This document shows, piece after piece, positions 12,848 to 34,508 of a stretch of DNA of 40,893 bases. The notes beneath the pieces are model-generated. The model was not told where the DNA came from and searched no databases. It saw only the letters and a program-made list of their open reading frames with translations. Numbering within the stretch: the first letter of the stretch is position 1; the number at the start of each line of letters is the position of its first letter. The stretch covers positions 1-40,893 of the IMG/VR virus record IMGVR_UViG_3300031569_000014; one strand, written 5' to 3'. Made by a program: the position numbers and the translations under genes. The DNA is from a virus.

Positions 12848-12862
12848 TTGTTCTCTTTCCTT

Positions 12863-13699: not shown

Positions 13700-13714
13700 T
13701 ATTATTTCCTTACC

Positions 13715-14554
13715 TTATACAAATGTAATCTTCACTAAACCTGATCCGCCTTGACCTGATCCACCAGCACAACATTTTGCCCAGTTTCCACAATAACTAG
13801 ATGTTCCTGGTTGACCACCGCCTGATGGCCAATTAATGTGGCACCCACATGCGCACCAAGCTTCGTTAGTAGCTGTTCCACCCATTGTTCCAATACCTGC
13901 CGCAACTCCTGAGAAACTAGTTTGTCCGTGACATCTACATGTTGTTGTACCAGCTTTCATGCCCATGCCGCCCATCATTCCAAAGTCAGCTCCAAATATG
14001 CCGCATATATTACAGTTTGCACAATCGCTTGTGGCATGTCTTTGTCCCCAAGCATCGCCATTACACATCCAACCACCACATGCACCAGTAGCGCAGAAGT
14101 TACTTAGATTGTGTCCATTAATATATGATTTACATCCCATACCTGCACTACAAGTATGTGACTTACCACACGGCCATGAACCACCAGCGCATACACTATA
14201 TTGACACCCTGGGTTAGTATTAATTGTTTTAGTAGCGAAATTGCCGCCTGCGCCGCCAATGGCGAACGAACAACAGTTACAGCATGTATGACCTGGGCCA
14301 CCACCACCACCACTCCAAATTTCAAATGTTACTTTATAAACATTGTCAGGAACACACCAATAGCAACATTTACCATTCGCTTGTTCACAACAGCCACTGG
14401 TTCTTGCACACATATGACATTGCATGCCACGTGCATTATATACCCATTGAGTTTTACGACACGCTCCTGCACCAGGTGCAAGTTTGTCTCTAGTAATGGA
14501 CCCATCTGGTATACCTGCTGATGTAATTTTTTTATAACTGCTATATGTAGCCAT
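13715..14554 (-). CDS. Cys/Gly-rich fibre or adhesin protein, first of three paralogues, 279 aa
   Basis: The N-terminal 35 residues (SAGIPDGSITRDKLAPGAG) match a common phage fibre leader of the type I-x-D-G-S-I-T-x-x-K-L. I count 31 cysteines, about one residue in nine. Conserved features are HTCCNCCSF, IGGAGGNFATK, the CxxCAGGSWPC region and the C-terminal GGSGQGGSGLVKITF. The WSGGGGGPG element followed by an aliphatic strand resembles glycine-rich tips of phage adhesins. It is the first of the tandem genes, 33 nt after the small fibre gene 15037-14588, with AAGGAA before ATG 14554. It is closer to the third copy than to the middle one. Confidence 0.85.
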   Translation of the reverse strand: MATYSSYKKITSAGIPDGSITRDKLAPGAGACRKTQWVYNARGMQCHMCARTSGCCEQANGKCCYWCVPDNVYKVTFEIWSGGGGGPGHTCCNCCSFAIGGAGGNFATKTINTNPGCQYSVCAGGSWPCGKSHTCSAGMGCKSYINGHNLSNFCATGACGGWMCNGDAWGQRHATSDCANCNICGIFGADFGMMGGMGMKAGTTTCRCHGQTSFSGVAAGIGTMGGTATNEAWCACGCHINWPSGGGQPGTSSYCGNWAKCCAGGSGQGGSGLVKITFV

Positions 14555-15414: not shown

Positions 15415-18400
15415 TTATGATTTACTTGTTAAAAAGTAAGCAAATGCAACTGGACTTCCACTTACACCGCCATTAAAGTTCATTCCCGTAGTTACAGTAA
15501 TTGGACTATTATCGGTTGTACTAATTGTATTACCCGTAATGTTTATTTTACCTGCTGTAACTGCGTTAACGTTTAGAGAACTACTGCCTCCACCAATTTG
15601 TGAGTTGATGTAAGTAATAATTGCTCTCTGTGTTGGAACTACATTATCTGAGTTAGCACTAAATGTTCCATCAGTACTAAATTCATTAATAACAGCGCCG
15701 CCTTGTCCTAAGCCTACTGCACCCAGTGACAACTCTTGTAGACCTGCCAAACTAAATGCACTTGTATTTAAGCTCGCAGAGCCTGTTGACTGCTCAACGT
15801 TGAACAAGCCACCAACTCTAAAGTTACCATCTTGGTCAGTACTTGTGTAGAACACTCGTCCTCCACCTGATTCTGTAACTTCGTCTTTCGGGTCATTAGC
15901 AACTGTTGGTGTACCAGGATAATTAGTATTTGCTAAGTTACCTGTACCAATGTCTAAGAAATCGTGTCCAGTTAAACGACATTGACTAAATCTTCTTCTA
16001 ATAGTAATGTTTGTTCCATGCTCAGGTGCTGTTTCAATCCCTGTATCTGGAGATATTTGTAAGTTAGCACTGTAGTTTCCAGCACTACCTACTACTTCTC
16101 TAACAAACACAATTTTAAAGAATCTGTCATCATTATCAAATTGTATGTTGGATCCTTCAACTGGCTGATCTGTTAATCCATAAGCATTAACATACTGTGC
16201 TGATTGATAAATGTCTGCATAACCGTCACCGTCGACTGTTGCACTAGCTGTTTCAAAGTCAGTACCTCTTGCAGTCCACGTTGGCTGATCTAGTACACCG
16301 TTACCAACTCTAACCTGCCACGGAACTTCAGTAGTTTCGCTTGGGTCAGTAATTGTTAGTGTTGGAGGACTAGTTAAGTTATAGCCTGATCCTGGCTTAA
16401 CGATATAAAACTGTGTAATTCTGCCTGTTGATACTTCTGCTCTTACAAATGCACCACTACCACTACCACCAGCAATCTCAACAACTTGAACTCTTGGCTC
16501 AATGCTATATGCTGTTGTAGCATCTAGTGTTGAAGCAACTGCGTTATCCGGATGCCATGTCTGCCACCCTGCACTGTTATCTGATTCTTTAGCAATACTA
16601 GCAACTTTAGTACCCGAATTGTATGCACTAATAAATCCATACTGTCCTGCACCTGTACCTGCTGTAATAACAATTCTCATACCAACGTATTTTGTATTGT
16701 TTGCTGTCTCAGTGTTTGATATTGTAATACTAGTTGCATTACCTGCCTGTGCTGTGTTAGCACTTGAACTATATCCACGTCCACCAACTGAGTCAATGTC
16801 ATTAAACAATCCATCGTTGTTAGTATCTGAGGCGTTATATGATGATCCGTCTTCTGGATTGCGTAGTCTAACTTCAAATACACCACCGTTTCTTACAACA
16901 GCCGCGTTTACTACTGCGCCATAACCGTCACCACTAATTGTGTATGTACCTGATGAATAGTTATTACCTGCATTAGTGTATTCTAAGTTAATAACTTTAC
17001 TACCGTCAGTAAGACCACGTCCAATTTGTGCTTCAAGTTTTCTGTTTTGTACACCACCTGTAATAGGAACTTCAGTAACGTCAATAAATTCTGATACTGC
17101 GCCTCTGTCACCGTACGAACAGTTACCGTTAGTAGCACGTACTTTGCCACCATTTTCTGCTAGGTAACCAATGTGTGCGTAGTAAGAGAATACCGAAACA
17201 AGTTCTGCTCTTCCTAAGTTAGTAACCCATGCACCAATACCGTCACTTAGTACTTGTGTAAAGTCGTTAGCAACAATACTATCGTTACCACCGTTGTGGA
17301 TAGATCCATCAACTTTAATTCCTACACAACCTGTACCAAAGTTAGTAACACCTTGTACGTATGGAGAACGTGCAGTAATCCAAACTCTATCATCATCTGG
17401 ACCCCAACCTGGATCAAGTGATGCATATGCGCCTGCTGTTGGACGCTTAGTTCCATATGCATTTGCACTACCTAGTGTACCATTTAGTCCGCCCAATGTT
17501 TGGTTTCTAATACCAGTACCGTCTCTTAGTAAGTACATATTTTCTAATGTAGAACCATTTACACTATTACCATAGTACAGTCCTGCCATTAATGTAAAGT
17601 AGTTAGAACCTTCTTGGACACTGTGTACTAGATCAAGAATAAATGCATCAATATAATGCTTGACATCTGCTTCACATGCTGTTACACTAAATGAGTATGA
17701 AGGGTATTCTACTGTAATATATTTTGTTACGTCACGTGCAATAAAGTCTTTGTTAAGCAATAGTTTTCTTACAGTTGCATACTTGTCTTGATCGTCTACT
17801 ATGCCATTATTGCCTCTAAATGCCGGAGCACTAGAATCACCTGATGCACCATTAATTTGGTAATCAATTTGGTCATACAATTCTTGAGCTAAGTCTGTAA
17901 GTATGGTGCTTGTTGCACTTGTACCATGCGGCTTAGTAACGTTCTGTGTTAGTGTATTACCAGTTTGTCTTGTAATAGCAGTACCTTCACTGATATCATC
18001 AAGTATTGATTTCATGTGCAATACACCAGCTAAACTGTATGTTGCATCACCTGCCGCCGTAACTGATCCTGCTGGCTCAACTCGTGTTGAACGCAATTCG
18101 TCACCAACAATAGCAACTCTTTCTGGAACTCTAATCGGTAGTACTTCTGTATACGTTCCTGTTTTTACAAATACAACTTTGTGAGGTATATGTTCTTTAG
18201 GAAGTGTATATCCTGCACCTAATGAGATTGCAGATTTAGCAATAGCTATAGCCGCTGTTAGTTCTGTTAAAGAGTCTGTTTCTGGAGCTCTAGTAGCATC
18301 TTTAATTTGGAAAGTCCTATCACCTGACGCAACACTGTCTAAGTCTTGGTAGTCTGCTGGAGGAGTAGCACTGTTAATAACATCTTCTGCTAAATCTAGT

Positions 18401-20274
18401 ACAAAAACAAGTGCCGCAACGTTTTGTGTTTCTGCGCCTGTTGCAAACCAGTCTGGAGTTTGGTTATCTTTGAATGTTTGCGCAACTCTACGTATGTTAA
18501 CGTTTCCGCCTTTTTTCATATCTAAGATTATTGCGTCAATTACAAAGCCAGCTAGTCTTTGAAACTTTGCTTCAGAAAAAGCAAATCCAATAAAGAATGG
18601 ACTTACTTGTGTAACAATTTGTCTCTTTGCCCACTTAGCAGTTTCAAGTGCAATAAACATTCTATTTTCTTCTAGTAATGATACTGAACTAGGCTTCTTT
18701 GGACCTTTTTCAATTTCTTCACATGCGTAACGAATTGATTTCCAAGGACGGTCTAATGTTCCACCGTTTATTGGATAAGCATTATTTGCTCCGTTATTAG
18801 CAACATAGTATACATCCGGAGTTGATCCAAAATCTTTCCATTCTGGTAATCCGCCTGCACTAACACTTAATACTTGTCCTTCAGTTCCAATTGGAAGTCT
18901 TGAAGGTCCTGATCCTGATTGGTAAAGTATATCACCTTCTGTAGTTAATGCACTTTCTTCTGCACCACTTGCTAGTGTATTCCAATAAGTACCATCTGTA
19001 TCTGCTGATGGCTTGTTGCCACTTGCTGATGTGTGTGCTAGTATACAAACATAACTAATTAATCCTTCACGTACTGCATCACCTGCATCGTATAGTGTAG
19101 AAGTTCCCCAAGCATTTTTCCATTCAATACCTTGGTTTAGTCTTGCCCAATATGTAGAGTTTGGGGGACGCTGTGCCGCGTTATCTGCAATAGCAACATA
19201 TGTATAACCACCTAGTCTTACAACATCGCCAATTCTATAGTCTTGGTTAGATGAGTCATCTCCCCATTCACCTCTTATATTAAATCCTGATGTAACTAAG
19301 TCGTACTTAGCACTACTTGCAGGATTTTCACCATAAACGTTATCATTAGCAACATACTGGTTACCACCATAAGTTACAAAGTCACCTGGTTGATATCTTT
19401 CATAAGGGTTCCAAGAGTTTTCAAATTCCATACCCGGAACAAAGATTTCCCAATTTGCAATATCTGCTTGTAGTGTACCTAATTGTGAATTATCATTAGT
19501 AACAACTGATGTGTGATGGGCCGTAGCAATATAAAGTGTAGCGCCGAACATTACAACATCGTTTACTTTATAACGTGTTTGGTTTGTCCATTCACCTTTA
19601 TAATCAAACCCTTTGTTTAAGTAGTCCCACTTACTTTGATCAGCTTCAAGTCCACTTGCTAAAGCCGCATTAGACGTGTGCCCAGTATTACAAACATAAA
19701 GTGTGCCACCATATTTAATAATATCGTTAATTTTATAACGTGTGCTAATTGCCCAGTTTTGTTTCCAGTCTTGACCTTCGGAGAATAGGTCCCATTTTAA
19801 AATGTCAGCTTCAAGACCAAGAGCATTACTTGCCGCCGCTGTATGACCAGTATTACAAAGGTAAATATTACCGCCGTATTTGACCAAGTCATTTGCTTTG
19901 TAAACAGTAGTAGCTACCCAATTATCTTTCCAGTCAATCGATGTAGCAAACTGATCCCATTTTGATTGATCAGCTTCTAGTGTTGCTTGCGCTGTGTGGC
20001 CGCTATTACAAATATATATAATACCACCATATCTTACAATATCATTGATTTTGTAAAAAGTTGCACCTGACCAATCACTCTGCCATTTTGTACCGTCACT
20101 AAATAAGTTCCAGTGTGCCGCATCTGTGTAGAAATTAGCATCTGCTGTGTGTCCTTTAATACACACATAAGTACGTCCACCATATCTGATGACGTCATCT
20201 TTTAGATATGCGGCTGTAGTAGTCCACGTATCTTTCCATATAAATCTAATTCTACCTAGCTTAAATTCTGCCAT
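15415..20274 (-). CDS. Giant modular fibre protein, 1619 aa, paralogue of 25884-20311
   Basis: Residues 1-435 hold eight repeats of about 50-60 aa with the pattern W-x4-Y-x2-x-D-x-V-x-Y-G-G-x-x-Y-x-C-x3-H-T, resembling CBM5/12-type chitin-binding modules. From about residue 490, VYYVANNGANNAYP starts a pectate-lyase-like parallel beta-helix. Two alpha-helical stretches, unusual in a fibre, interrupt it (about residues 520-660 and 760-880). The region with QGVTNFGTGCVGIKVDG and NDFTQVLSDGIG is shared with the paralogue, as is CRLTGHDFLDIGTGN followed by RVFYTSTDQDGNFRVG near residues 1440-1500. The C-terminus is a plain beta tail. The N-terminal six residues match the paralogue almost exactly. 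Probably a long tail fibre or side fibre with glycan-binding modules. Confidence 0.85.
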   Translation of the reverse strand: MAEFKLGRIRFIWKDTWTTTAAYLKDDVIRYGGRTYVCIKGHTADANFYTDAAHWNLFSDGTKWQSDWSGATFYKINDIVRYGGIIYICNSGHTAQATLEADQSKWDQFATSIDWKDNWVATTVYKANDLVKYGGNIYLCNTGHTAAASNALGLEADILKWDLFSEGQDWKQNWAISTRYKINDIIKYGGTLYVCNTGHTSNAALASGLEADQSKWDYLNKGFDYKGEWTNQTRYKVNDVVMFGATLYIATAHHTSVVTNDNSQLGTLQADIANWEIFVPGMEFENSWNPYERYQPGDFVTYGGNQYVANDNVYGENPASSAKYDLVTSGFNIRGEWGDDSSNQDYRIGDVVRLGGYTYVAIADNAAQRPPNSTYWARLNQGIEWKNAWGTSTLYDAGDAVREGLISYVCILAHTSASGNKPSADTDGTYWNTLASGAEESALTTEGDILYQSGSGPSRLPIGTEGQVLSVSAGGLPEWKDFGSTPDVYYVANNGANNAYPINGGTLDRPWKSIRYACEEIEKGPKKPSSVSLLEENRMFIALETAKWAKRQIVTQVSPFFIGFAFSEAKFQRLAGFVIDAIILDMKKGGNVNIRRVAQTFKDNQTPDWFATGAETQNVAALVFVLDLAEDVINSATPPADYQDLDSVASGDRTFQIKDATRAPETDSLTELTAAIAIAKSAISLGAGYTLPKEHIPHKVVFVKTGTYTEVLPIRVPERVAIVGDELRSTRVEPAGSVTAAGDATYSLAGVLHMKSILDDISEGTAITRQTGNTLTQNVTKPHGTSATSTILTDLAQELYDQIDYQINGASGDSSAPAFRGNNGIVDDQDKYATVRKLLLNKDFIARDVTKYITVEYPSYSFSVTACEADVKHYIDAFILDLVHSVQEGSNYFTLMAGLYYGNSVNGSTLENMYLLRDGTGIRNQTLGGLNGTLGSANAYGTKRPTAGAYASLDPGWGPDDDRVWITARSPYVQGVTNFGTGCVGIKVDGSIHNGGNDSIVANDFTQVLSDGIGAWVTNLGRAELVSVFSYYAHIGYLAENGGKVRATNGNCSYGDRGAVSEFIDVTEVPITGGVQNRKLEAQIGRGLTDGSKVINLEYTNAGNNYSSGTYTISGDGYGAVVNAAVVRNGGVFEVRLRNPEDGSSYNASDTNNDGLFNDIDSVGGRGYSSSANTAQAGNATSITISNTETANNTKYVGMRIVITAGTGAGQYGFISAYNSGTKVASIAKESDNSAGWQTWHPDNAVASTLDATTAYSIEPRVQVVEIAGGSGSGAFVRAEVSTGRITQFYIVKPGSGYNLTSPPTLTITDPSETTEVPWQVRVGNGVLDQPTWTARGTDFETASATVDGDGYADIYQSAQYVNAYGLTDQPVEGSNIQFDNDDRFFKIVFVREVVGSAGNYSANLQISPDTGIETAPEHGTNITIRRRFSQCRLTGHDFLDIGTGNLANTNYPGTPTVANDPKDEVTESGGGRVFYTSTDQDGNFRVGGLFNVEQSTGSASLNTSAFSLAGLQELSLGAVGLGQGGAVINEFSTDGTFSANSDNVVPTQRAIITYINSQIGGGSSSLNVNAVTAGKINITGNTISTTDNSPITVTTGMNFNGGVSGSPVAFAYFLTSKS
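18957..20274 (-). repeat. Eight chitin-binding-like protein repeats in the 1619-aa fibre
   Basis: Eight units of roughly 150-180 nt encode W...Y..(N/G)D.V.YGG..Y.C..(G)HT....W. Units 2-4 are most alike (for example VYKANDLVKYGG and RYKINDIIKYGG), while units 6-8 have drifted and lack the HT pair in part. Confidence 0.85.
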
Positions 20275-20310: not shown

Positions 20311-23300
20311 TTATCCGTTAAAGTCATCGCGTTCTGTTCTTGCCGCCATAAACATACCTAGTGCTTGTAAACCGCCACCTAGTGGTCCGTTAATAGTCAT
20401 TCCTACATTAATATCAGTCATTGCAAGAGCATTATTTGAACCTGCTGTGTTTGACATTACGTTATCTTCTAAGACAACTTGTCCTGCTGTAAGTTTGTTT
20501 GTAAACAGGTTGGATCCACCACCTGTAAATCTATTTTCGATGTAGCTTGTTAAAGCCTTTTGTGTTGGAATAATATTATCTGAATTAGCAACAAATGTAT
20601 TATCTGTAGTAAATTCTCTAATAACAGCTTGCGTACCACCAACTCTAATACCACCAAGTCTTAGTTCGTCTAATCCTTCTAAGTTAAAGAAGTCTGCATT
20701 TAGTGTAACACCACCTTGTGCTTGTGAAACTCTAAACAATTCACCAACTCTGTAGTTACCATCTTGGTCACTACTTGTGTAAAATACTCGTCCGCCATTT
20801 GATTCTTGTACTTCGTTAGCTTGTACAGTGTCATTTGCCGATGTCTGTCCGTCAACATATAGATTAGGATAGTTAGTGTCTGCAAAGTTACCTGTACCAA
20901 TGTCTAAGAAATCATGACCTGTTAAACGACATTGACTGTAGCGTTCACGTATTGTAACACCTGTGCTGTGTACTGGTGCTGTTGTTCTACCAAGTACTGG
21001 ACTAATTTGGAATGTTAATTCAATGTTAGGTGTTACACCTGATTGTGAATTCACTTTAACTAATCTGTAAATTGTAGCGTTGCCTGCAAATCTTACGTTT
21101 GCTCCTGGTCCTGGAACTGTAGTAATACCACTAATTCTCATTGTGTTACCAATTTGTAATTCTTCACCAAAACCGTTACCAGTAATTAATACAATCGCAC
21201 TTTGATAACCTGTACCTCTATTATAAAATGTAGGTTGAGGTAATACGCCGTTGTTAATATCAACAGTAAAGTACGGCTCGCCATATTCTTCTGGATCTTC
21301 AACTGATATTGTCGGAGCAGTAATGTATCCACTTCCTGGATTATAAATCTTAAACAAGTTAAGTTTTCCGTTTACTACCTCAACACGAGCGTATGCTGTA
21401 GCTCCACCTGTAATAATATTACCTACTGAACCAGCTGATGACATTCCAACAAATGCTGGTAAATTATTTCTAATTCCGCCTGCGATTGTTGTTAAGTTTC
21501 CAGTAACTTCTCTAATTGTCCAACCATAACCGTTGTCTGAACTTAGTGTAGTTCCTGTATTACTTACTACCATAAACAACCCTTGAGTGTAACCAATTTT
21601 CCAATTTTCTCTACCTGAGTCACCTACTAGTCCTGAGTCTGACCATGCTGTTCCTGTATCACTATATATAATTCTATCTGACTGATTCATTGTTGCAACC
21701 CAACAGTTACTACCAAACGCTAAGTCACTGTATACTTCTGGTGCTACTGGTGAATTTGCCGCTCCAGTTGTCCAAGTTGCTCCATTGTCAACGGAAATTA
21801 CTGTAGTTCCGTTTTGTGCTAATGCAATCCATTTGCCTGCACCGTATGCTAATCCTACCCAAGTAGTATTACTGCCGCCGGTTGCTCGTGTATTCCAAGT
21901 TGAAGGTACAACAGTTGAATCGCCGTCTGTGGTAAGTGTTGCAACATATGCATTTGCATTACCTGTTGCTAGAGCAATAATTGTATCACCGTTTGGCCCA
22001 CCAATTTCAACATGCTTCCAAGTTGTACTAGCTGGCAATGTTGAGTAATCAAAGTTAATACCGTCATTGGTGTAAACTAATTTGTCAGTACCGTCAGCAA
22101 CGCCTACCATAATTGGACCAGTTTTAGCAAAGCCTGTATAGCTTAAACTATATGGAGATTCTAAGTCAGCCCAAACAGCACCATCTGATGATGTATACCA
22201 GTCATTTGTTCCTGTTGGTGCATAATACCACTTTGCTAGTCCGTCACTGTAACCGAGGTCCTGTGCACCAGTTTGTACACTATTGTTAGTCTTTGCAAAT
22301 GTAGGTGAACTAATAGTTATTCTTGGTTCATATGTATATGTAGTTGTGCCGTCAAGCGCAGTTTCATTTAATTTACCATTAACAATATTGTCCCATCCAG
22401 GAGTATTTGTAGATTCTTTATAAACTGTTGCAGTAAACGTAGATGGATTATAATTCTGTATCCATCCATATTGTCCTGCTCCAAGTCCTTCTGTAATGTT
22501 AATTCTCATGCCGAGCAACTGTGCTCTTGTTCTAACTTCAGAAGCCGCAAATACAAGAGTTGATAAACCACCACCTTGTCCAGTGTTACCAAAGGATTTA
22601 AATCCTCTACCACCAACGTTAGTACTATCATCAGGTAGTGCTAAATCAATTCTAGATACTGCTCCGTATCTAAATTCATCATATCTTGCATCAAAGTCAA
22701 CACCTGATGCTTGTGTAGTTGATAACGTTGCTTGTGTATATGTTTGTCCTGTGTTTTTATATGCTACTGCAAGAATTTGTGATCCAGTAGTAAACACTTC
22801 ATCTATAGTAGCTTCGCCGCTTTGGTTGTTTACTGTAGCTGTTTGTGCAGTTTCAGTTGAATCAAATCCTTCAGCAACACTACCAAACGTGCCGTATGAG
22901 TTGTTACCGTTAGTAGCACGTAAAATACCACCGTTTTCTGCTAGGTAACCAATGTGTGCATAATATGTAAACACAGATACTAGCTCTGAACGTCCTAAGT
23001 TTGTTGCCCAATATCCAATACCGTCACTTAGTACTTGTGTAAAGTCGTTAGCAACGATTGATCTATTACCGCCGTTATGTAGTGCTCCGTCAATTTTCAT
23101 ACCAACACAGTTATCACCAATTGTAGTAACACCTTGTACGTATGTTGATTTACCACCCTGGATTCTCTCCATATTTACGGCGCCTGCTGTTGCACTTACA
23201 AATGTGTGTGCAGATAATTCTGAACTAATACCGACATTCATTGTAATAGTTGTACTAGAAGTACCAGTAATTACAATTTTCTTATTGTAATATGGATCTG

Positions 23301-25884
23301 TTGATCTTGGGTGTAACAGTTGTGTTGCATTACCATCACTAGCACAGGTCCATGCTAAACTATTTGCATCTATACTTACTGATTGTCCTGGTGTAATATT
23401 GTGAGACCAATTTATTGAGTCGTTAGTAGCACTAACAAACCTGTGTTCGTAAACTCCGTCTGGATTAACTCCAACATTTACTACAATGCTTGTAGGCGTA
23501 ACTGCAATAATTTTACGTTTTTCACCGTATGCAGGATCTGTTATTCTCGGATATGTATGAGTTGTTAAAAAATCATCTTTTGCACATGTAAATGTTAAAC
23601 TGTTAGGATCAAAGCTAATTTCTTCTTTTGGCTGTAATCCGTGTACTGTTCCAAATTCTATTGTCATTAACCCGTTTGCTGGATCATAAGTTGTTCCTGT
23701 TGTAGGTGTATATTCTGCAGAAGGAATAGTTAATGTCATTACACCAGATGCCGGAGCGTATGTACCTGCTGTTGGTGTATATTGCATTTTATTAGCATCT
23801 GCAATCCAAACACTTGTGTCGTCCGGTCCTGTACCAGGATCAAGTGACACAAATGCGCCGCCTGTTGGTCGCTTAGTTCCGTATGAGTTTGGTCCTACTA
23901 GTGCTCCAGTAAGTCCTTTAAGTGTACAATTTCTAAGTCCACTTCCGTTTCTAACATAGAACATATTTGATCTAACGTTATCATCCCCAACACTTAGTAC
24001 TAATTGAGGTTGTACAACACCGTTGATGTAAGTTCTCTCACCTAATACAACATCAGTAGAAACTGCTGGACGAATCGTTGTTGTTCTTAATTCAGCACCA
24101 ACAAGTGCAACTTTACTTGGAATACTAATTGGAAGAATTTCAGCAAACTCACCTGACATACATTTTACAGTAGCACCAGCGCCAACTCTGTGAGCCTGGT
24201 CTGCTAACAAGTACGCCATTGTAAATCTAATTGTTCTAAACGGAGCGTTTAATGTACCGCCTTGTGTTGCATCATCAATGCCATTAGTTGATACATAATA
24301 AAGTTTTGCTTGTAGATCAAGTGAGTCCCATGCCGGAACAGTTCCGGTAACTCTTAATGCTTGACCAGTTGAGCCAATTGCAAGACGTTGTGTGTCTATT
24401 GCAGTTGAGTCTTGATCTTCAAATGTTTTTAAGTCACCGCGTCTTGCTAACTTGTTAGTTAGTGTACCAAGGATCATTACTTTCCAGTAATTTTGATCTG
24501 GTTGGTTAATGTCCATATCGGGTCTAGAAGCCGATTCTGTTGATCTATGATATGTTAGTGCAAGATATGAAGTCCCTTGCCAAGTAACAATATCTCCTGG
24601 AAAATATTCAACATTGTCTTCCCAGAAGTTTCTGTATTGACGACCATCTATAATTTGTTCCCAATATGCAGGCCATGCATCAGGTTGTAAGTTTGTACTA
24701 TCTTGAATAGCAATATATAAACTTCCTGAATGACGAACCATATCACCTGTTTTGTAATTTATAAATGAACTGTCGCCATCTTCGGCGTTCCAATCTTGCC
24801 TAAATTTATAACCTTCAAAAGTTAAATTCCAATCAGTTGTATATGTACTTGGTGCTAATGCAAAGTTAAATGTAACTGCTTTATAAATGTATCCGCCGTA
24901 TAGTACAGTATCGCCTGGTTGATAGTAAACGTTATCAGCCCATACTCCTTCGTATTCACTACCTGGAAGATATGTTGTCCAGTTATTGGCCGCATAATCA
25001 GTATTAAATCCGTTTGCCCCTGTTGATGACGTATGACCTAGTATACACTGCATCAAGTTTCCGCCACGCTTTACGATATCATTTTTCTTATATCTGTAAG
25101 ATGAAACCCACTCTGATGAAATTGTTACAACACCATCTTCGTCTGTTGTTGATATAGCAACATACTCAATGCCGTCAAGTTGTATAGTCCACTTGGATTG
25201 ATCTTCTTCTAAACCTAGCGTTGCGTTATCAGCTGAAGTGTGTCCTTGAACACATTGGTAAACAATGCCGCCGTATTTTACAATATCGTTTATACGATAA
25301 CGTACACCAATTGACCAGTTTGCTCTCCAAGTATCACTATCTGATAGTGTTGCCCAATCTCCTTGGTTAGCTTCTAAGCCTGAAAGTGTTGTTGCGGCAG
25401 ATACGTGCTGATTAACAGCTTTGTAAACTTTACCATTGTAACGTACTAAATCGTTTGTTCTGTATAGTGTGCTAACTGTCCAGTTGTACTTCCAGTCCGC
25501 TGACGAAACAGCAACTAGTGTCCATTTTCCGATGTCAGCAACTAGTCCGTCTGTGCCTGAAGCAAATGTTGCGGCAGAAGTATGAGACTCAGTACATTCG
25601 TAAATACTAGCACCGTATTTTACAATATTACCTACTGCGTATATCGTGCTTGTAGCCCAACCATTTTTCCAAACTTTACCTTCTGACTGTTTTTTCCATT
25701 TTGGTAATGCTGGTGTAACATCAGTACCTGCAAGATCATTATAAAATGTAGCGCCAGTGTGTGTTCGTAAAGCAACATATGTAAAACCTTCGTACTCGAT
25801 CATATCATCAACAATATAGTCTGAGCCGCCTGTCCATGCGCCTTTCCAATTAAATCTTATTCTGCTTAGTTTAAATTCTGCCAT
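20311..25884 (-). CDS. Giant modular fibre protein, 1857 aa, with chitin-binding-like repeats, beta-helix and BNR-type propeller
   Basis: Eight N-terminal CBM5/12-like repeats (residues 1-475) have units such as RYRINDIVKYGGIVYQC. A parallel beta-helix begins near YYVSTNGIDDATQGG (about 535). Between about residues 730 and 905 is an inserted pair of repeats, each containing T-C-A-x-D, P-R-x-T-D-P-x-Y and N-V-G blocks. After a region shared with the paralogue (QGVTTIGDNCVGMKIDG), residues about 1195-1490 hold several S-x-D/N-G-x-x-W blades (YTSSDGAVW, ISVDNGATW, LSSDNGYGW), a sialidase/BNR-like beta-propeller that the 1619-aa paralogue lacks. The C-terminal part again matches the paralogue (CRLTGHDFLDIGTGN). 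Exact TATAAATA lies 18 nt upstream. Likely a long fibre with several glycan-binding modules. Confidence 0.87.
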   Translation of the reverse strand: MAEFKLSRIRFNWKGAWTGGSDYIVDDMIEYEGFTYVALRTHTGATFYNDLAGTDVTPALPKWKKQSEGKVWKNGWATSTIYAVGNIVKYGASIYECTESHTSAATFASGTDGLVADIGKWTLVAVSSADWKYNWTVSTLYRTNDLVRYNGKVYKAVNQHVSAATTLSGLEANQGDWATLSDSDTWRANWSIGVRYRINDIVKYGGIVYQCVQGHTSADNATLGLEEDQSKWTIQLDGIEYVAISTTDEDGVVTISSEWVSSYRYKKNDIVKRGGNLMQCILGHTSSTGANGFNTDYAANNWTTYLPGSEYEGVWADNVYYQPGDTVLYGGYIYKAVTFNFALAPSTYTTDWNLTFEGYKFRQDWNAEDGDSSFINYKTGDMVRHSGSLYIAIQDSTNLQPDAWPAYWEQIIDGRQYRNFWEDNVEYFPGDIVTWQGTSYLALTYHRSTESASRPDMDINQPDQNYWKVMILGTLTNKLARRGDLKTFEDQDSTAIDTQRLAIGSTGQALRVTGTVPAWDSLDLQAKLYYVSTNGIDDATQGGTLNAPFRTIRFTMAYLLADQAHRVGAGATVKCMSGEFAEILPISIPSKVALVGAELRTTTIRPAVSTDVVLGERTYINGVVQPQLVLSVGDDNVRSNMFYVRNGSGLRNCTLKGLTGALVGPNSYGTKRPTGGAFVSLDPGTGPDDTSVWIADANKMQYTPTAGTYAPASGVMTLTIPSAEYTPTTGTTYDPANGLMTIEFGTVHGLQPKEEISFDPNSLTFTCAKDDFLTTHTYPRITDPAYGEKRKIIAVTPTSIVVNVGVNPDGVYEHRFVSATNDSINWSHNITPGQSVSIDANSLAWTCASDGNATQLLHPRSTDPYYNKKIVITGTSSTTITMNVGISSELSAHTFVSATAGAVNMERIQGGKSTYVQGVTTIGDNCVGMKIDGALHNGGNRSIVANDFTQVLSDGIGYWATNLGRSELVSVFTYYAHIGYLAENGGILRATNGNNSYGTFGSVAEGFDSTETAQTATVNNQSGEATIDEVFTTGSQILAVAYKNTGQTYTQATLSTTQASGVDFDARYDEFRYGAVSRIDLALPDDSTNVGGRGFKSFGNTGQGGGLSTLVFAASEVRTRAQLLGMRINITEGLGAGQYGWIQNYNPSTFTATVYKESTNTPGWDNIVNGKLNETALDGTTTYTYEPRITISSPTFAKTNNSVQTGAQDLGYSDGLAKWYYAPTGTNDWYTSSDGAVWADLESPYSLSYTGFAKTGPIMVGVADGTDKLVYTNDGINFDYSTLPASTTWKHVEIGGPNGDTIIALATGNANAYVATLTTDGDSTVVPSTWNTRATGGSNTTWVGLAYGAGKWIALAQNGTTVISVDNGATWTTGAANSPVAPEVYSDLAFGSNCWVATMNQSDRIIYSDTGTAWSDSGLVGDSGRENWKIGYTQGLFMVVSNTGTTLSSDNGYGWTIREVTGNLTTIAGGIRNNLPAFVGMSSAGSVGNIITGGATAYARVEVVNGKLNLFKIYNPGSGYITAPTISVEDPEEYGEPYFTVDINNGVLPQPTFYNRGTGYQSAIVLITGNGFGEELQIGNTMRISGITTVPGPGANVRFAGNATIYRLVKVNSQSGVTPNIELTFQISPVLGRTTAPVHSTGVTIRERYSQCRLTGHDFLDIGTGNFADTNYPNLYVDGQTSANDTVQANEVQESNGGRVFYTSSDQDGNYRVGELFRVSQAQGGVTLNADFFNLEGLDELRLGGIRVGGTQAVIREFTTDNTFVANSDNIIPTQKALTSYIENRFTGGGSNLFTNKLTAGQVVLEDNVMSNTAGSNNALAMTDINVGMTINGPLGGGLQALGMFMAARTERDDFNG
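24455..25884 (-). repeat. Eight chitin-binding-like protein repeats in the 1857-aa fibre
   Basis: Eight units of about 150-200 nt encode the same W...Y...D.V.Y.G..Y.....H pattern as in the paralogue. The first unit of both proteins is nearly identical at its start (MAEFKL, then RIRF), so the whole array was probably duplicated together and then diverged unit by unit. Confidence 0.85.
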
Positions 25885-26602: not shown

Positions 26603-29600
26603 CTATAATAGTAATGCAAGTTTTATTGCAATTTCCTCTGCATCATTAAATGTAACAGCACCTGTAGCACCTGCAACCGAAACCCAGTTATTGCCGACAT
26701 CGTATATTTCTACTCTGTCTTCAACTGTGTTATACCGCATCATTCCAAGTTCTGGACTAGGATGCCTGTTAGCGTTGTTACCAACAGGAATAACAAATCC
26801 GCCTGTTCCTTCAACTTTAAAGTATCCTGATCCTGCTTGTTTTAAAGTAGTAACAGCACCGTCTATAGTATTAGTTATCACATTTCCGTTAAAACTAAAG
26901 TTTTCAATTGTTACAAAACCACTGCCGTTTGCACGTAAAACTAAATCTTCGTTAGTAGTAATTGTTTCTAAAACATTATCGTGTATAGCAATGTCATCTA
27001 CTTCAAGTCTTGCTACGTTAAATCGTTCTGTAGTTACATCAGCTACAAGCGAACCACCTGCATAAAATCTTAGTGTATTATCGTTGGCGCCCGGTGTTAA
27101 CTCGGGTGTAATGTATGTATCTCTATCAACATCGTATACTCCGCCTAGCTGGATCCAGCTTCCGTCATATGCTTCAAAAACACTAGTATCAGTGTTATAT
27201 CTAATCATACCAGTAATTGGTGATCCAGGACGCTGTGCTGTTGTACCCTTAGGAAGTATTAATGCTCCTGTAGCATCGATTGTTACAGACTCACTACTTG
27301 GATCTAATATGATGTCGCCACTTAGGTTAGCAATAATGTTATCACTAAGTTGTAGTTGATCAATAATAACTTGACCAACTCCGTTTGGTGTAACATTAAT
27401 ATCGCCATTGCTTGCATTTGTAGTAATAGTATCGTTGTCAATAATAATATCATCGACAAATACCTTGCCAACATTTATTTCTGACCAATTAAGTAATGTT
27501 GTTCCTAACTTATATGTATCGTCAACATTTGGAACAATGTCACTGTCAATTCTTGCGTTGATATTAATTGTGTCAGTATCTTCGTCGCCGAGTGTAATAT
27601 TTCCGCCAACTGTTACATTGCCAGTTACATCTAAGTTACCAGTAATATTAACGTTGTCTTGTAAATTAATGTTGCCTGTTGAACTGTTAATATTAATGTC
27701 GCCGCTAGTACTACTAATAGTATTTCCGCTAACTCTAATATTTCCAGCTTCAACCTTTGTGCCATCAATAATCGTTGTGTTTGTACCGTCAGTAAACGTA
27801 ATACCTTGGTTGTTATTAAATAAGAATTCTGCGTTAGTAAATGTTACTTCGCCTGTTTCTTGATTAACTCTAAATAAATCGCCTACTCTAAAGTCACCTT
27901 TGTGGTCAACTGTACTAAAGTATATATTTGCATCGCTGTTAGCAACAACTTCGTTTGCTTGGATAACTTCAGTTACATCATTAGTAACGTCTTTACCTGT
28001 GCCAATATAAGCTAAGTTCATCCCAATAGCATACACAATCGAACCACTGCCTGTTCCGTGAATACCGTAATTACCGTAAACACTTGCACTTGCAATACTT
28101 CTAATTTCGCCACCAAAGTCTGAGTGATCAATAAATGTTAATGCAGTAGCAGTGCCGCCTCCGCTAAACTCAACGTCTTGAATAAATGTATCATTATCAA
28201 CAAGTACTTGTGATCCACTGTCTTCGTCAAAATCTAATTTTAATACAGTGTATTGATCAACTATTGAAGCACTAGTTGGATTAGTAAATGCAGATGCTTG
28301 ACCTGCTCCTTTTCTAACACGGAAGTCGTCAATACGTCCTGCAAAACCATTTACGCCTGCGTAGTCCGAACCAATAATTAATGGCTTAGTTGTTCCTAAA
28401 TTAGTATTATTTGATGCAGTAGCTTGCTGTACTCCGTCAACAAAGAACTTAATTGTTGTACCAACTCTCGAAATCATAATATGATAAAAAGTAGTATTAA
28501 TAAGTGTAATAGCCGGAGCCATAATTGAAGTAGTACCAATGTTAATTTTTGGAACTCTATCAACTGTGTAAAAATTTAATGCATTGTCAGTAGCCGAGCC
28601 TGCTCTAAAGTCAAACATCATTTCTGTACCAGTGTCATCTGAGATATAAATTACCCCTTCTACACTAAAGTCACCTGTGCCAAAGCCAAAATCACTTGCA
28701 GAAGTTAGTGAAAATCTATCGCCTGTGCCGTCAAATAATCCAATTCCTGTTCCAAACTTTATAGGAGTTCCTGTAGAAACTTGAGCGTTACCAACTGCTG
28801 TAACAGTTTTCTTAGCTCTACTTAATGGCTTAATAAATCCAGTTGCTTTACCATCAATAATTACAGTATTAGTATCAATTGATTCAATTGCGGCTGTTGC
28901 TAATGTTGCGCCGCCTGCGTCTTTAAGAACAATATTCTGCCCTGCGGCTACTGCTGTTCCAGCAAATCCGCTATATTTAATTTTTGTTTTTCCATCGCCT
29001 TTAAGTCCACTAGCACCCTCAAGTATTTCAATACCCTTGTCTGCAAAGTATGTAAAGCAATTTAACCATTCTACCCTTGCGCCATTAGTAACTTTAAGTC
29101 CACTAACTCCTGGAGTAATAAATGTTACGCTGTGGAAAAGCATTGCGGCTTCTCTTGAATCTGAATGTGCAACTGCACCATCAATGAAACAACCTTTACC
29201 TGCGTCACCACTTGCAAATCCTCTTGGATCATCAGTACTAGTTGTTGTACCTTTTGTGATTACACTAACGTTTCTTATGTATGGTGATCTTTCATAAATT
29301 CTAACGTTGTTAGCAAAACGGAAACCGTGTCCTGTGTTTGCTCCGCTATTATAATAAAAATCTTTAAGTGTAACATCTTCAACTGCTGAGTCGCCTTGCA
29401 TTAAAAATGCATCGTTGCTTTGTGTTCCACTTGTTGGAGAAATCTCAACTGCACGTAAACTGTGCCCTCTTACTGTAACACCTTGTGGAACGGTTAATGG
29501 AAATGCTTCTTGATATTGTCCTGGATAAATGTAAACTGTATCGTGTAAGCCAGCAAGTTCTAAACCCTTTGCAATAGTCGCAACCGGATCTTGCGGGTGC

Positions 29601-30319
29601 GTTCCTGTTCTAGAATCACTACCGTTTGTAGCAACGTATATCAAATTGCCCGGAGTACTAATTAAATCAATAGCACCAAAGTCTAGGTCATTTGTTGTTA
29701 GTGTATTTGTTGTTACGTTAGCAAAGTTACCAGTTGCCCAACGCTTAGATGATGTACCAATATTGTACGTGTTGTCAATGTCTGGCATAATATCACTAGC
29801 AATATCTGCATTAATAAAAATGTTATCAGTGTCATCACTACCAATAGTAATATTGCCGTCTGCACTAATATTTCCAGTAGCATGTAGATTACCATTAACA
29901 GTAGTGTTACCAATAATGTTAATTTCACCAGTTCCGTTTGCACGAATAAACAAATCACTGTTAGTATTTGTGTTTTCAATAAAGTTGTTATTAAGTTCTA
30001 AGTCGCCTACAATAACTCTGTTACCAACAATAGTATTGTCAGCAGTAGCTATTGAAAATTCTTGTGCAGTAGTTGAAATAGTGCTAGTAGCACCGTTGAT
30101 TGTTACATTACCTACTTGGAATGTAGTATTTGTAATTTCTAAGTCGGTAACTCTTGCAGTGCCTGCAATGTCTAATGCGTATTGAGGACTAGTGGTTTTT
30201 ACACCGATTCGACGATTTGTTACATCTAAATATAAAAGGTCTGTCTCAAAGGCCAAATCCGTCCCATTACGTAGGAGGTTTTCCTTTAAGAGAGGACCCG
30301 ATATGCGACCAATTGCCAT
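26603..30319 (-). CDS. Fibre protein with beta-helix and LamG-like lectin domain, 1238 aa
   Basis: The N-terminus (MAIGRISGPLLKENLLRNG, then DLAFETDLL) matches that of the 1349-aa neighbour and probably forms the attachment or trimerisation head. Repeated IxGNxxxxGNITIG strands follow. A pectate-lyase-like beta-helix runs from IYVATNGSDSRTG through GQYQEAFPLTVPQGVTVRG to GVSGLKVTNGARVEWLNCF. Residues about 520-680 form a concanavalin/LamG-like domain (FDGTGDRFSLTSAS, GTGDFSVEGVIYI, TFYHIMISRVGTTIKFFVDG, GRIDDFRVRKG), a lectin fold absent from the neighbour. The C-terminal part has two knob motifs (GTTAQRPGSPITGMIRYNT and NANRHPSPELGMMRYNT). TATAAATA is 120 nt upstream, leaving a long structured leader. 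Confidence 0.87.
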   Translation of the reverse strand: MAIGRISGPLLKENLLRNGTDLAFETDLLYLDVTNRRIGVKTTSPQYALDIAGTARVTDLEITNTTFQVGNVTINGATSTISTTAQEFSIATADNTIVGNRVIVGDLELNNNFIENTNTNSDLFIRANGTGEINIIGNTTVNGNLHATGNISADGNITIGSDDTDNIFINADIASDIMPDIDNTYNIGTSSKRWATGNFANVTTNTLTTNDLDFGAIDLISTPGNLIYVATNGSDSRTGTHPQDPVATIAKGLELAGLHDTVYIYPGQYQEAFPLTVPQGVTVRGHSLRAVEISPTSGTQSNDAFLMQGDSAVEDVTLKDFYYNSGANTGHGFRFANNVRIYERSPYIRNVSVITKGTTTSTDDPRGFASGDAGKGCFIDGAVAHSDSREAAMLFHSVTFITPGVSGLKVTNGARVEWLNCFTYFADKGIEILEGASGLKGDGKTKIKYSGFAGTAVAAGQNIVLKDAGGATLATAAIESIDTNTVIIDGKATGFIKPLSRAKKTVTAVGNAQVSTGTPIKFGTGIGLFDGTGDRFSLTSASDFGFGTGDFSVEGVIYISDDTGTEMMFDFRAGSATDNALNFYTVDRVPKINIGTTSIMAPAITLINTTFYHIMISRVGTTIKFFVDGVQQATASNNTNLGTTKPLIIGSDYAGVNGFAGRIDDFRVRKGAGQASAFTNPTSASIVDQYTVLKLDFDEDSGSQVLVDNDTFIQDVEFSGGGTATALTFIDHSDFGGEIRSIASASVYGNYGIHGTGSGSIVYAIGMNLAYIGTGKDVTNDVTEVIQANEVVANSDANIYFSTVDHKGDFRVGDLFRVNQETGEVTFTNAEFLFNNNQGITFTDGTNTTIIDGTKVEAGNIRVSGNTISSTSGDININSSTGNINLQDNVNITGNLDVTGNVTVGGNITLGDEDTDTININARIDSDIVPNVDDTYKLGTTLLNWSEINVGKVFVDDIIIDNDTITTNASNGDINVTPNGVGQVIIDQLQLSDNIIANLSGDIILDPSSESVTIDATGALILPKGTTAQRPGSPITGMIRYNTDTSVFEAYDGSWIQLGGVYDVDRDTYITPELTPGANDNTLRFYAGGSLVADVTTERFNVARLEVDDIAIHDNVLETITTNEDLVLRANGSGFVTIENFSFNGNVITNTIDGAVTTLKQAGSGYFKVEGTGGFVIPVGNNANRHPSPELGMMRYNTVEDRVEIYDVGNNWVSVAGATGAVTFNDAEEIAIKLALLL

Positions 30320-30458: not shown

Positions 30459-33400
30459 TTAATCTAGTATAAGGTTGAATACGTATGCTAAATCTTCAAC
30501 GTCTGAAGATTCAATACTTTCAACTTCGCCAGCCGCATTAATCCACGCAGTTCCGTTCCATGTTTCAACATACTGTACTTGTGTATTGTAACGTGTGTGT
30601 CCAACTTCGGGCGATCCAGGTCTTGCGGCCGTGTTACCTTGTGGTACAACCATACCGCTCGTATTCTCAATTTTTAAGAAAGATGTACCGCTAGGATTAG
30701 TTAAATTAATTATAAAATTACTACTAGTATTATTAAGTAACTCACCATCTCTAAATTTAAGAGTGTTAATAACAGTATGTCCTGTGCCATTAGATCGTAA
30801 TATACTATTACCATTAGCATCATCTGCTGATACAATAGCACCGTCAATACTAAATTTACCCCCACTGCTAAATCCATTTGATTCCAGCAATGTTCCGTTT
30901 AGTGTATGATTTGTTACGTTATTTGTAGTAAAGTTAAATTGGTTATTTGAAAGATCAAGGTATGTATTACGATCTGTATCGTATATTCCTGCTAAACTAA
31001 TTGCGCCGGCAACTTCGAGTCCTTCAAATGTGTCAAAAGTATTATTGTATCTCAGTCCTGCTTGTATTGCCGGACGTTGTGCTGTAGTACCTTTTGGAAT
31101 TCTTAAATCTTTATTTGCACTTATACTTAAATTTTCAGTTGGTGCAAAATTAACATCGCGCTTTGTTCCGCCTAGATTATTTGTTACACTTGTCCAATAA
31201 TCAATTGAAGGACTGTTTGCAATAGGCAAGTAGTATGATGCAGTGTTTGCTATTGATAATCCTGTTGGGTCAGCGTCATCTAATAATACACTAGTGTAGG
31301 GGTCCCATAAAGATCCAATAGTTGCCGATCTCCAAGTTAAACTTCCTGCCATAGTCGCTGTTAGCAAATACAAATATTCGTATACTAAGTCGTTATAACT
31401 TAGTCCAGTTGGGTCAGTATACCAAGCAAATGCTGGATAGTTATAACCAGCTTGTCCGCCACCTTGATATCCGCCGCGAGCCGTGTCTAACGCCGTCGTA
31501 AGCGTACTTGATCTAGTTGTGCTTAGTGCTGAGTACAATCCGCTTATTCTTGGAATAAGCATGGTCTTTAATATTTTTTCACTAGCTAGGTCTCTATTAG
31601 AGCTTGCTCCGTCTCCTAAGAAATTATTCATTTCGCTTTCGTACACAGCAAACGTTCTGTTTATAGCAAACGATCCAAATGTACTTGCTAATGATGTTTT
31701 TTCTGTTGAGTTAGCATACACAACAATACCGTACAATCCATCTGCAAACGTATTAAGTAGTGCTGTGTTTTCGACAACACCGTCAAAGTTATTATCAAGA
31801 TAACTTGCTAACATATTTGCGGCATGCTTAATTGCGTTGTCAGATACTGTAGCAGTTCCTAATACCGGAATTCCAAATACTGTAGTATACCTAGGTAATT
31901 GAGTTTTAAAGGATGAATAGCCATTAAAAATTGTAGGTGTTGATAGTTCATAATCGTTAACAACAAACACACCGCTTGGACTAAACTTACCAATAATTTT
32001 ATTATCTTCAAGTTCAATATTACTTACTCTAACTTTACCAGTTCCTAAAGCAGTAATATATAAGTCTGCATTTGATTCGTTTGTTGAAATTAATTGTGAT
32101 GATATAGAAATGCTATTAATAACTGCTGTCGTTGCATTAAGTTCTTTCCAGCGATGTGTTGCTGTACCTAATACCAATCCTTCAGTTGACCCTGGTTCAA
32201 AGTTTTGACTAATGTTAGTATTGAAGTCAACAGTATCATTGCTATTATCGCCAATGGCACTAACTGCGCCACTTACACTTAAATTGCCTGATAATTCTAC
32301 ACTAGGTGCAAATACATTACCTTGGAATACAATGTTTCCTGCGCTGTTAAAGTTTATTTCGGATCTAGTTGTTTGTAAAATGTTTCCGTTAATTACAATA
32401 TTATCTAAGTTTACTGTGCCAGGATTAATTGTAACAACATCATTTCCGTTTCTAATTTGTACTTGTGAGTTATTTGCAAAAATACTTTCAATGTCAAAGC
32501 TAGTTCTTTCGTTTTCTAAATCAACATGGAAGTTGTCACCGATTCTAAAGTTACCTTTATGATCTTGTCCTGTAAAGTAAACCTTTGCACTATTTAATTC
32601 TACTACTTCGTTTGCTTGTATTGCCAATGTATTATCATTAGTAACACTTTTCCCTGCACCAATATATGCAAAGTTATGATTAACCATGTATGCTAAACAA
32701 CTAGCACCATCTGCTTCAATGCCTTTATTACCGTATACGTTAGCACTTGCAATAGTTCGTAGTTCAGCACCATAGACTGTAGTTCCGTCTTTTGCTGTTC
32801 TACCCGAACCCTGTGATATATAAATGCCCCTGTTAGCAAAGTAAGTAAAACTGTTGAGCCATTCAACTCGTACACCGTTTGTAATTGTTAATGCATCTAC
32901 ACCAGGAGTAATAAATGTGCAACTATGGAATAACATACTTGCTGATATACTATTTTGATTAACAACTGCTCCGTCAACTAATGCTCCTTTACCAGCATCG
33001 CCGCTTGCAAATCCTCTTGGGTCGCTTGCACTTGTTGTTGTGCCTTTAGTAAGAACTGTTACGTTTCTAATATAAGGGCTTCTTCCCGGCTCTTGTTCAA
33101 AAATAGTTGTTGTAAAATTAGTAACAAGTCTAAAACCGTAACCTGTATTGGCGCCACTGTTATAATAAAAATCTTTAATTGTTAAATTTTCAATCGTAAC
33201 ATCACTGTTAACTAAAAATGCATCATTACTTTGCGTTGCAGAAGTTGGAGAAATTTCAACTCCTCTAATGCTGTCACCTTGTATAGTAACGCCTTTTGCA
33301 ACTGTTAACGGAAATGCTTCTTGATACTGTCCCGGATAAATGTAAATTAAATCACCATCGCCTGCTAGTGTTAATGCTTTAGCAATCGATGCAAATGGTC

Positions 33401-34508
33401 CACCTGGGTTTGTGCCTGTGTTAGTGTCAGCACCGTTATTACTACTAACATATATAATACCAACGTTTTTTGTTAATTCAATACCTTGATAAACTAGCCC
33501 ATTTGCTTTTATGCTGTCTGCAATTAACTCCGTGACAGCAATTTTAAATCGCTTGTTAGGCCCAGTACTATCATCGTCTTTACCAATGTGAAATCTATCA
33601 CTATCATCTGGTATTAAATCATTTTTAAATTCTGCTAAGAAACTTGCAGTGTCAGTACTATCGTCACCAATAGTAATCGATCCGCCGCTGTATGTAATAT
33701 TTCCAGTAGCATGTACATTACCTGTTACTGTTAGTGTATCGCCAGTTTCTAATTGAAGTCGTCTAGGAGCTGATGTAGGATAATATTTTTCGATATATGC
33801 TTTAAATGCTGTTGTGTTTGCATGGTCTGCTAATGTTGAAGATGCAGGGTATGCAACTCCACCAACAAATGCTGTATTCATTGTTCCTAGTTTAAGAACG
33901 TCATCTGCTTGTATATCACCGTCACCGTCAAAGTCTAATGCCGCAAGCTCTTCTGCGTTCCAGTTGCCTGATTGTGATAATGATAATGCGTAATCATACA
34001 ACCTATTCATGTCATTAGGAGTACTACTTGCGCTAGTTATTGGTCCTGGGCTCCAGTAATTACCGTAGTTGCTGTTTAATTCCCAGGCTACAGTTTGTCC
34101 GTCGAGCACTTCTGATCGCAGGCCAATGCCGCCGTTAGTTTGCAATGCTATAATGCCGTCGCCTTTAATTGCAAAATTATTACTGCCAATTCCGGTAGTA
34201 GTAATATACCCTTCAGCATGTGTAGATTTTATAGTTACATCGCCACTTGCTTGACTTATACCAGTAGTTGCTAGTGTAATATCACCAACTTTAAAACTAT
34301 TGCCAAAGACAATATCAGGATCACTATTACCTGATGCTGTACGTAACGTACCTGCGATTGTTAAATTTCTAGGAGTAGTAGTTGTGTTAATACCAAGAGT
34401 GTTATCTCTTTTTACAACTAAGAGGTCTGTGTCAAACGCAAGGTCTGCAAGTTCTCTTTGTAAATTGTCTTGTAATAACTGTCCACCAATGCGGGCGACT
34501 TGTGCCAT
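30459..34508 (-). CDS. Fibre protein with beta-helix, calcium-loop motifs and an inserted globular domain, 1349 aa
   Basis: The N-terminus (MAQVARIGGQLLQDNLQREL) is paralogous to that of the 1238-aa protein. Near residues 189-206 is DFDGDGDIQADDVLKL, a dockerin or EF-hand-like calcium loop. The beta-helix part (IYVSSNNGADTNTG, GQYQEAFPLTVAKGVTIQG, GVDALTITNGVRVEWLN) is close to the paralogue. Residues about 860-1105 differ: a region of several helices (YTTVFGIPVLGTATV, AANMLASYLDNNFDGVVE, YEYLYLLTATMAG) that does not read like a fibre, replacing the expected beta strands and carrying a second D-N-N-F-D-G calcium-type loop. I do not recognise it. Two knob motifs follow. Exact TATAAATA stands 26 nt upstream. 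Confidence 0.87.
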   Translation of the reverse strand: MAQVARIGGQLLQDNLQRELADLAFDTDLLVVKRDNTLGINTTTTPRNLTIAGTLRTASGNSDPDIVFGNSFKVGDITLATTGISQASGDVTIKSTHAEGYITTTGIGSNNFAIKGDGIIALQTNGGIGLRSEVLDGQTVAWELNSNYGNYWSPGPITSASSTPNDMNRLYDYALSLSQSGNWNAEELAALDFDGDGDIQADDVLKLGTMNTAFVGGVAYPASSTLADHANTTAFKAYIEKYYPTSAPRRLQLETGDTLTVTGNVHATGNITYSGGSITIGDDSTDTASFLAEFKNDLIPDDSDRFHIGKDDDSTGPNKRFKIAVTELIADSIKANGLVYQGIELTKNVGIIYVSSNNGADTNTGTNPGGPFASIAKALTLAGDGDLIYIYPGQYQEAFPLTVAKGVTIQGDSIRGVEISPTSATQSNDAFLVNSDVTIENLTIKDFYYNSGANTGYGFRLVTNFTTTIFEQEPGRSPYIRNVTVLTKGTTTSASDPRGFASGDAGKGALVDGAVVNQNSISASMLFHSCTFITPGVDALTITNGVRVEWLNSFTYFANRGIYISQGSGRTAKDGTTVYGAELRTIASANVYGNKGIEADGASCLAYMVNHNFAYIGAGKSVTNDNTLAIQANEVVELNSAKVYFTGQDHKGNFRIGDNFHVDLENERTSFDIESIFANNSQVQIRNGNDVVTINPGTVNLDNIVINGNILQTTRSEINFNSAGNIVFQGNVFAPSVELSGNLSVSGAVSAIGDNSNDTVDFNTNISQNFEPGSTEGLVLGTATHRWKELNATTAVINSISISSQLISTNESNADLYITALGTGKVRVSNIELEDNKIIGKFSPSGVFVVNDYELSTPTIFNGYSSFKTQLPRYTTVFGIPVLGTATVSDNAIKHAANMLASYLDNNFDGVVENTALLNTFADGLYGIVVYANSTEKTSLASTFGSFAINRTFAVYESEMNNFLGDGASSNRDLASEKILKTMLIPRISGLYSALSTTRSSTLTTALDTARGGYQGGGQAGYNYPAFAWYTDPTGLSYNDLVYEYLYLLTATMAGSLTWRSATIGSLWDPYTSVLLDDADPTGLSIANTASYYLPIANSPSIDYWTSVTNNLGGTKRDVNFAPTENLSISANKDLRIPKGTTAQRPAIQAGLRYNNTFDTFEGLEVAGAISLAGIYDTDRNTYLDLSNNQFNFTTNNVTNHTLNGTLLESNGFSSGGKFSIDGAIVSADDANGNSILRSNGTGHTVINTLKFRDGELLNNTSSNFIINLTNPSGTSFLKIENTSGMVVPQGNTAARPGSPEVGHTRYNTQVQYVETWNGTAWINAAGEVESIESSDVEDLAYVFNLILD

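Follow-up and report, generated by a model that had tools for sequence, protein, structure and literature searches.

The window, a 40,893-nucleotide stretch of DNA from a marine bacteriophage, contains two neighbouring genes on the minus strand that encode paralogous fibres, as judged by BLASTP. One encodes a 1349-aa tail fibre or baseplate-associated fibre (30459–34508) and the other a 1238-aa protein (26603–30319). The scaffold of the larger protein matches PHROG families annotated 'baseplate wedge subunit' and 'tail fiber', best at residues 342–567 and nearby, among them phrog_13163, a T4-like phage fibre/baseplate family (E 4.1e-95, residues 342–567). BLASTP pairs residues 579–838 of this fibre with residues 735–996 of the paralogue, and 1118–1348 with 1002–1238, leaving 279 residues between the paired segments in the 1349-aa fibre versus 5 in the paralogue. 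A first-pass annotation of the sequence had described a globular insert in the fibre at a point where the paralogue joins directly, and these alignments establish that the insert is real. The limits given there, 31190–31925 (residues 862–1106), fall inside the insert, which is slightly wider: about 275 residues, at approximately 843–1117 (31158–31982, minus strand); the motifs quoted are present in the 1349-aa ORF. On the same strand, the insert follows a stretch of fibre shaft (residues 579–842, 31983–32774) and precedes a C-terminal part (residues 1118–1349, 30462–31157), both common to the paralogue, in which a five-residue junction (997–1001, 27317–27331) marks the insertion point.

Other fibre genes of the window have modules too. 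In the paralogue, residues 530–670 (28310–28732, minus strand) form a Laminin_G_3 (ConA-like lectin) module (Pfam PF13385, E 1.9e-13). It resembles the insert in being a globular module of cellular type on the shared fibre scaffold, but it belongs to another family and occupies another insertion point. BLASTP also shows that the paralogue lacks residues 130–258 of the 1349-aa fibre (33735–34121, minus strand), a further region that is present in 14 of 14 fibres compared with that of the window and has no match among PDB sequences. It includes DFDGDGDIQADD, which by eye is dockerin/EF-hand-like. Two further minus-strand fibre-type proteins, of 1619 aa (15415–20274) and 1857 aa (20311–25884), contain four and five CBM_5_12 stretches, respectively. 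These carbohydrate-binding stretches suggest a target covered with chitin or polysaccharide. Cys, Gly and Trp are very abundant in three tandem paralogues of ~279 aa (12008–14554, minus strand), which are 64–73% identical to one another. Towards the opposite end of the window, minus-strand genes at 4168–5631 and 7525–9354 have PHROG matches, to tryptophan halogenase and to Nol-like carbamoyltransferase.

A standard phage fibre domain, the finding that the first-pass annotation had named as counting against its view, was looked for and not found. The insert matched 0 families in Pfam and 0 in PHROGs, although the scaffold of the same fibre does match the latter, and it occurs in 0 of 50,697 deposited phage records. 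On the strength of these searches we rejected such a domain. Searches against PADLOC, and sequence and profile searches against the PDB, returned no match either, and tblastn against plasmids gave just two matches, at chance level.

Outside the deposited phage records, we found the insert in 29 IMG/VR contigs at 46–100% identity and in five further contigs (L169, L175, L180, L226 and L227); all five of the closest relatives identified through the C-terminal part of the fibre (L223–L227) have it. NG86 omega values for the insert were 0.11–0.48 in 14 of 14 comparisons, indicative of purifying selection, with the values themselves being rough because dS is saturated in many comparisons and often above 1. 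The 29 plus five contigs, together with purifying selection, argue that the insert is no chance occurrence. Its rate of change is about that of the flanks of the same fibre. The major capsid protein of the window is 67–70% identical to those of large myoviruses (12 listed of 2,482 matching records) and 92–94% identical to those of two large insert-carrying contigs, of 167,518 and 261,806 bases.

An initial scan of bacterial genome contigs with patterns from the phage copies (A1) confirmed 0 of 66 stretches, these patterns being, we think, too phage-specific. A motif scan then yielded a sample of at least 118 bacterial stretches, of which at least 55 contain, in at least 59 segments, matches to the insert profile (A2) with E values below 1e-3 and as low as 5.5e-37. 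Alignment of the phage and bacterial alignments by hhalign gave a probability of 99.95 and an E value of 1.2e-38 over 235 columns. The insert is thus homologous, at the profile level and over nearly its whole length, to lipoprotein-like, apparently secreted proteins that make up a bacterial family without a name and share an EExxH motif; pairwise identities are ~22–29%. The first-pass annotation had likened the insert to a domain acquired from a secreted protein of cells and had proposed a search against such proteins; the strong homology found to lipoprotein-like secreted proteins, with no phage fibre family matching, bears this out.

By record titles, the bacterial relatives among the matches listed come from about 13 phyla, and Bacteroidota, Gammaproteobacteria and Verrucomicrobiota are among the groups represented. 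Within one class, 4 of 60 genomes sampled had the family, the starting genome counted. Eight bacterial members searched against Pfam and NCBIfam gave nothing over the curated cut-offs. Of 28 N-termini inspected by eye, most are signal-peptide- or lipobox-like, many with a lipobox-like Cys. The bacterial proteins are mostly stand-alone with such secretion-type N-termini, whereas the fibre domain is internal and has neither signal peptide nor lipobox. In a planctomycete (L117), a minus-strand ORF has a HELAH-containing region N-terminal to its EExxH domain (3608–4429 of that stretch); hhalign of the family against this region found nothing significant. The C-terminal part of a 701-aa ORF in L118 may be a second domain copy with EHLLH replacing EExxH, and is perhaps a site intermediate.

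To compare residues, we used an alignment (A5) of 69 rows: 53 'cell' rows, one of which (L210) is a viral_contigs record, 13 selected fibre copies and three giant-protein rows (see below). Seven fragmentary or frame-broken segments (L095, L112, L144, L078, two of L159 and one of L141) were left out of it and of alignment A3. Family motifs are HAAN..YLDNDEDG, LEEVLH, ARGG, YP..AWYTYDD and TEYxYW; an invariant His, YLDN, Glu133, ARGG and Tyr201 are common to the family and the insert. The His (H55, His895 in the window fibre, 31824–31826) is kept in 53/53 cell rows, 13/13 fibre rows and two of the three giant-protein rows, and the ARGG motif lies at residues 1010–1013 (31470–31481). DNNFDGVVE (residues 905–913, 31770–31796), a DxDxDG-type motif that had already been picked out as calcium-loop-like, is conserved family-wide: D65 and N66 are found in 69/69 rows and D69 in 67/69.

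A different pattern is seen for three other positions. Of the 53 cell rows, 47 have the full set of E134, H137 and E200; the remaining six, which form three sister pairs in the tree, have none of them. HExxH itself occurs neither in the window insert nor in the bacterial family. Where the predicted central helix bears EExxH in the family, the window has the degenerate E977-K-I-L-K981 (31566–31580), while the counterpart of E200, Glu1044 in YEYLYLL (31377–31379), is retained (coordinates in this and the preceding paragraph are for the minus strand). All 13 fibre rows show this combination, with Lys-Lys (eight) or Arg-Arg (five) at 134/137 and Glu at 200. They have also lost the Cys192/Cys196 pair of the bacterial family, which would fit folding in the cytoplasm. 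Since E133, like H55, is kept in every cell and fibre row (53/53 and 13/13), and since E133, H55 and R168 persist in the six bacterial rows without the site, these residues look structural. With Lys or Arg in the site, the fibre module should not catalyse, judging from its sequence; one guess is that a Lys/Arg–Glu salt bridge replaces a metal in these copies. All 13 fibre copies group together in an unrooted tree (support 100/100), and hence site loss may have been a single event.

Structure prediction, proposed by the first-pass annotation together with a fold search, gave a poor model of the window insert itself (pLDDT 37.4 with 11 close sequences) and a high-scoring one of a bacterial homologue (L067) that is 28% identical to it. 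Modelled with 69 sequences, window included, this homologue reached pLDDT 93.5 and pTM 0.90. VIA-align placed the Pro-Pro endopeptidases PPEP-2 (Z 8.7), PPEP-3 (8.3) and PPEP-1 (8.1) nearest to the model, followed by anthrax lethal factor (7.6), an MtfA-like hydrolase (6.4) and collagenases (~6), every one of which is a zincin; the best 23 of 50 rows listed are PPEPs, with Z from 8.7 to 7.6 over ~150–165 residues, a level (Z ~8) that, according to the tool's own note, possibly reflects just a common arrangement. Zincins carry HExxH on a central helix. Foldseek against the PDB returned 0 matches at E ≤ 0.001, and its top 22, all at E ≥ 0.018, bear titles that we take to belong to the zincin superfamily; the PPEP-2 chain with VIA Z 8.7 has a Foldseek E of only 0.067. 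In the model, all strands of three or more residues lie before residue 115 (spanning 33–114), helix 130–147 carries E133-E134-x-x-H137, further helices follow, and E200 sits on helix 194–209. PPEP-3 is described as having an N-terminal alpha/beta domain, then a central HEXXH helix, and a third zinc ligand, Glu, within an all-helical C-terminal domain (PMC12828418).

The consistency of the neighbour list and this shared order of elements make a zincin (metallopeptidase) fold probable for the bacterial family, as predicted from the model; its members may use a metal. The motifs differ: PPEPs and other zincins have HEXXH, the bacterial family EExxH and the phage insert EKILK. Pfam and PDB profile searches gave no match to the PPEP or lethal-factor peptidase families, which are structural neighbours only, and hhalign against an MtfA alignment (five of nine loci, L301–L309; the other four had no ORF passing the motif filter) gave nothing significant. 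A BFVD fold search likewise found nothing at E ≤ 0.001. Two sets of matches from phmmer of L067 against the PDB, to repeat proteins (best E 2.8e-6, 0 passing stretches) and to retroviral capsids (best E 0.067), were judged spurious. One caveat is that the model is of a homologue only 28% identical to the insert, which, with the Foldseek and hhalign results, weakens the zincin assignment.

The same domain occurs on a separate scaffold, in giant proteins of ~3,480 aa from large-phage contigs (L215–L217), and also in L200 (split) and L204 (truncated, with EEILH intact, and left out of the tree). One of these, L217, lies inside a contig of 316,664 bases that has no match to the window capsid protein. 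E134, H137 and E200 are all absent from L215 and L216, and L215 has a Laminin_G_3 module as well. Their size and make-up suggest that the giant proteins are virion proteins. The 100/100 branch that sets the fibre copies apart in the unrooted tree has the giant-protein copies on its other side, together with the bacterial ones, where their nearest placement is unsupported (86/67). Because of this, and because the root is not fixed, fibre and giant-protein copies may formally still have a single phage origin. That many bacterial phyla have the domain, as opposed to one clade of phage fibres, points to transfer from bacterium to phage, within the limits of an unrooted tree. The secreted-protein origin put forward in the first-pass annotation is supported, while the predicted metalloprotease-like fold, the degenerate site and the occurrence in giant proteins had escaped it.

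On balance, we favour the view that the insert is a zincin-like module that came from a secreted protein of bacteria, lost its catalytic ability and was probably kept for binding. In this view, the bacterial proteins probably have a zincin fold, and their site combines the EExxH of the central helix with a Glu from a C-terminal helix. A phage ancestral to this group would have taken up the module and placed it between two segments of the fibre shaft, after which the second Glu and the His would have changed to Lys/Arg and the Cys pair would have been lost, ending catalysis, with the core and the calcium-like loop retained. Most probably, the module protrudes from the shaft and binds a host-surface or extracellular ligand, perhaps via the old cleft. 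It would be one of a number of modules on this tail that bind sugars or proteins, the others being Laminin_G_3 of the paralogue and CBM_5_12 of two further fibre-type proteins. Loss of the presumed active site suggests reuse for gripping rather than cutting, and the lectin and CBM modules in neighbouring fibres lend support to a binding role. Retention of Glu at E200 in 13/13 fibres weakens this explanation, as does the rate of change, which is close to that of the flanks, unlike a fast-changing receptor-binding tip.

That same rate would suit a rigid, calcium-stabilised spacer or trimer-organising element that binds no ligand, as would the conserved calcium-like loop and the presence of the insert in every fibre found with this C-terminus (L223–L227, 5/5). 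We consider this somewhat unlikely, given that the paralogue shaft manages with five residues at the same point, that a 275-aa globular domain of cellular derivation would be an odd choice of spacer, and that other fibres of the window bear binding modules. It is improbable that the zincin likeness amounts to nothing more than a widespread alpha/beta arrangement, with the bacterial proteins having an unrelated fold: the modest Foldseek E values (≥ 0.018) and the reading of VIA Z ~8 noted above would allow it, but the leading rows of both lists come from a single superfamily, and the co-varying residues lie on a helix equivalent, by order of elements, to the HEXXH helix of PPEP-3. Still less probable is that the insert mimics a secreted lipoprotein of the host and binds its partner, as a decoy or docking interface; homologues in Bacteroidota, Gammaproteobacteria, Verrucomicrobiota and others, with surface-lipoprotein-like N-termini, fit this idea, and an identity of just ~22–29% to the bacterial forms does not. 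Finally, an enzyme with a site rebuilt from His895, the Glu residues still present and the Lys/Arg that have been gained is very unlikely, for although E133, E200, H55 and R168 are kept in 13/13 fibre rows, three of these look structural, and E134 and H137, a pair that changes together with E200 in bacteria, are replaced by Lys/Arg throughout.

Phage fibres collect binding modules, and cell-derived modules in fibres are already known. In the open-licence literature, a body without preprints and most subscription journals, we found no report of such a domain in a fibre, of a protease-fold pseudoenzyme as a fibre module, or of the EExxH family. On the favoured reading, a dead module kept for binding, a fibre binding module would have come from an unusual source, namely a metallopeptidase-like domain stripped of its site. 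More tentatively, the data could describe an unrecognised bacterial family of secreted, zincin-fold lipoproteins with an EExxH...E site in place of HExxH, captured at least twice into virion proteins of large phages, mostly as site-less adhesins. In either case, the insert points to an apparently unnamed, widespread family of bacterial surface proteins, in which the co-variation within the EExxH...E site opens a metal-dependent function to direct testing.
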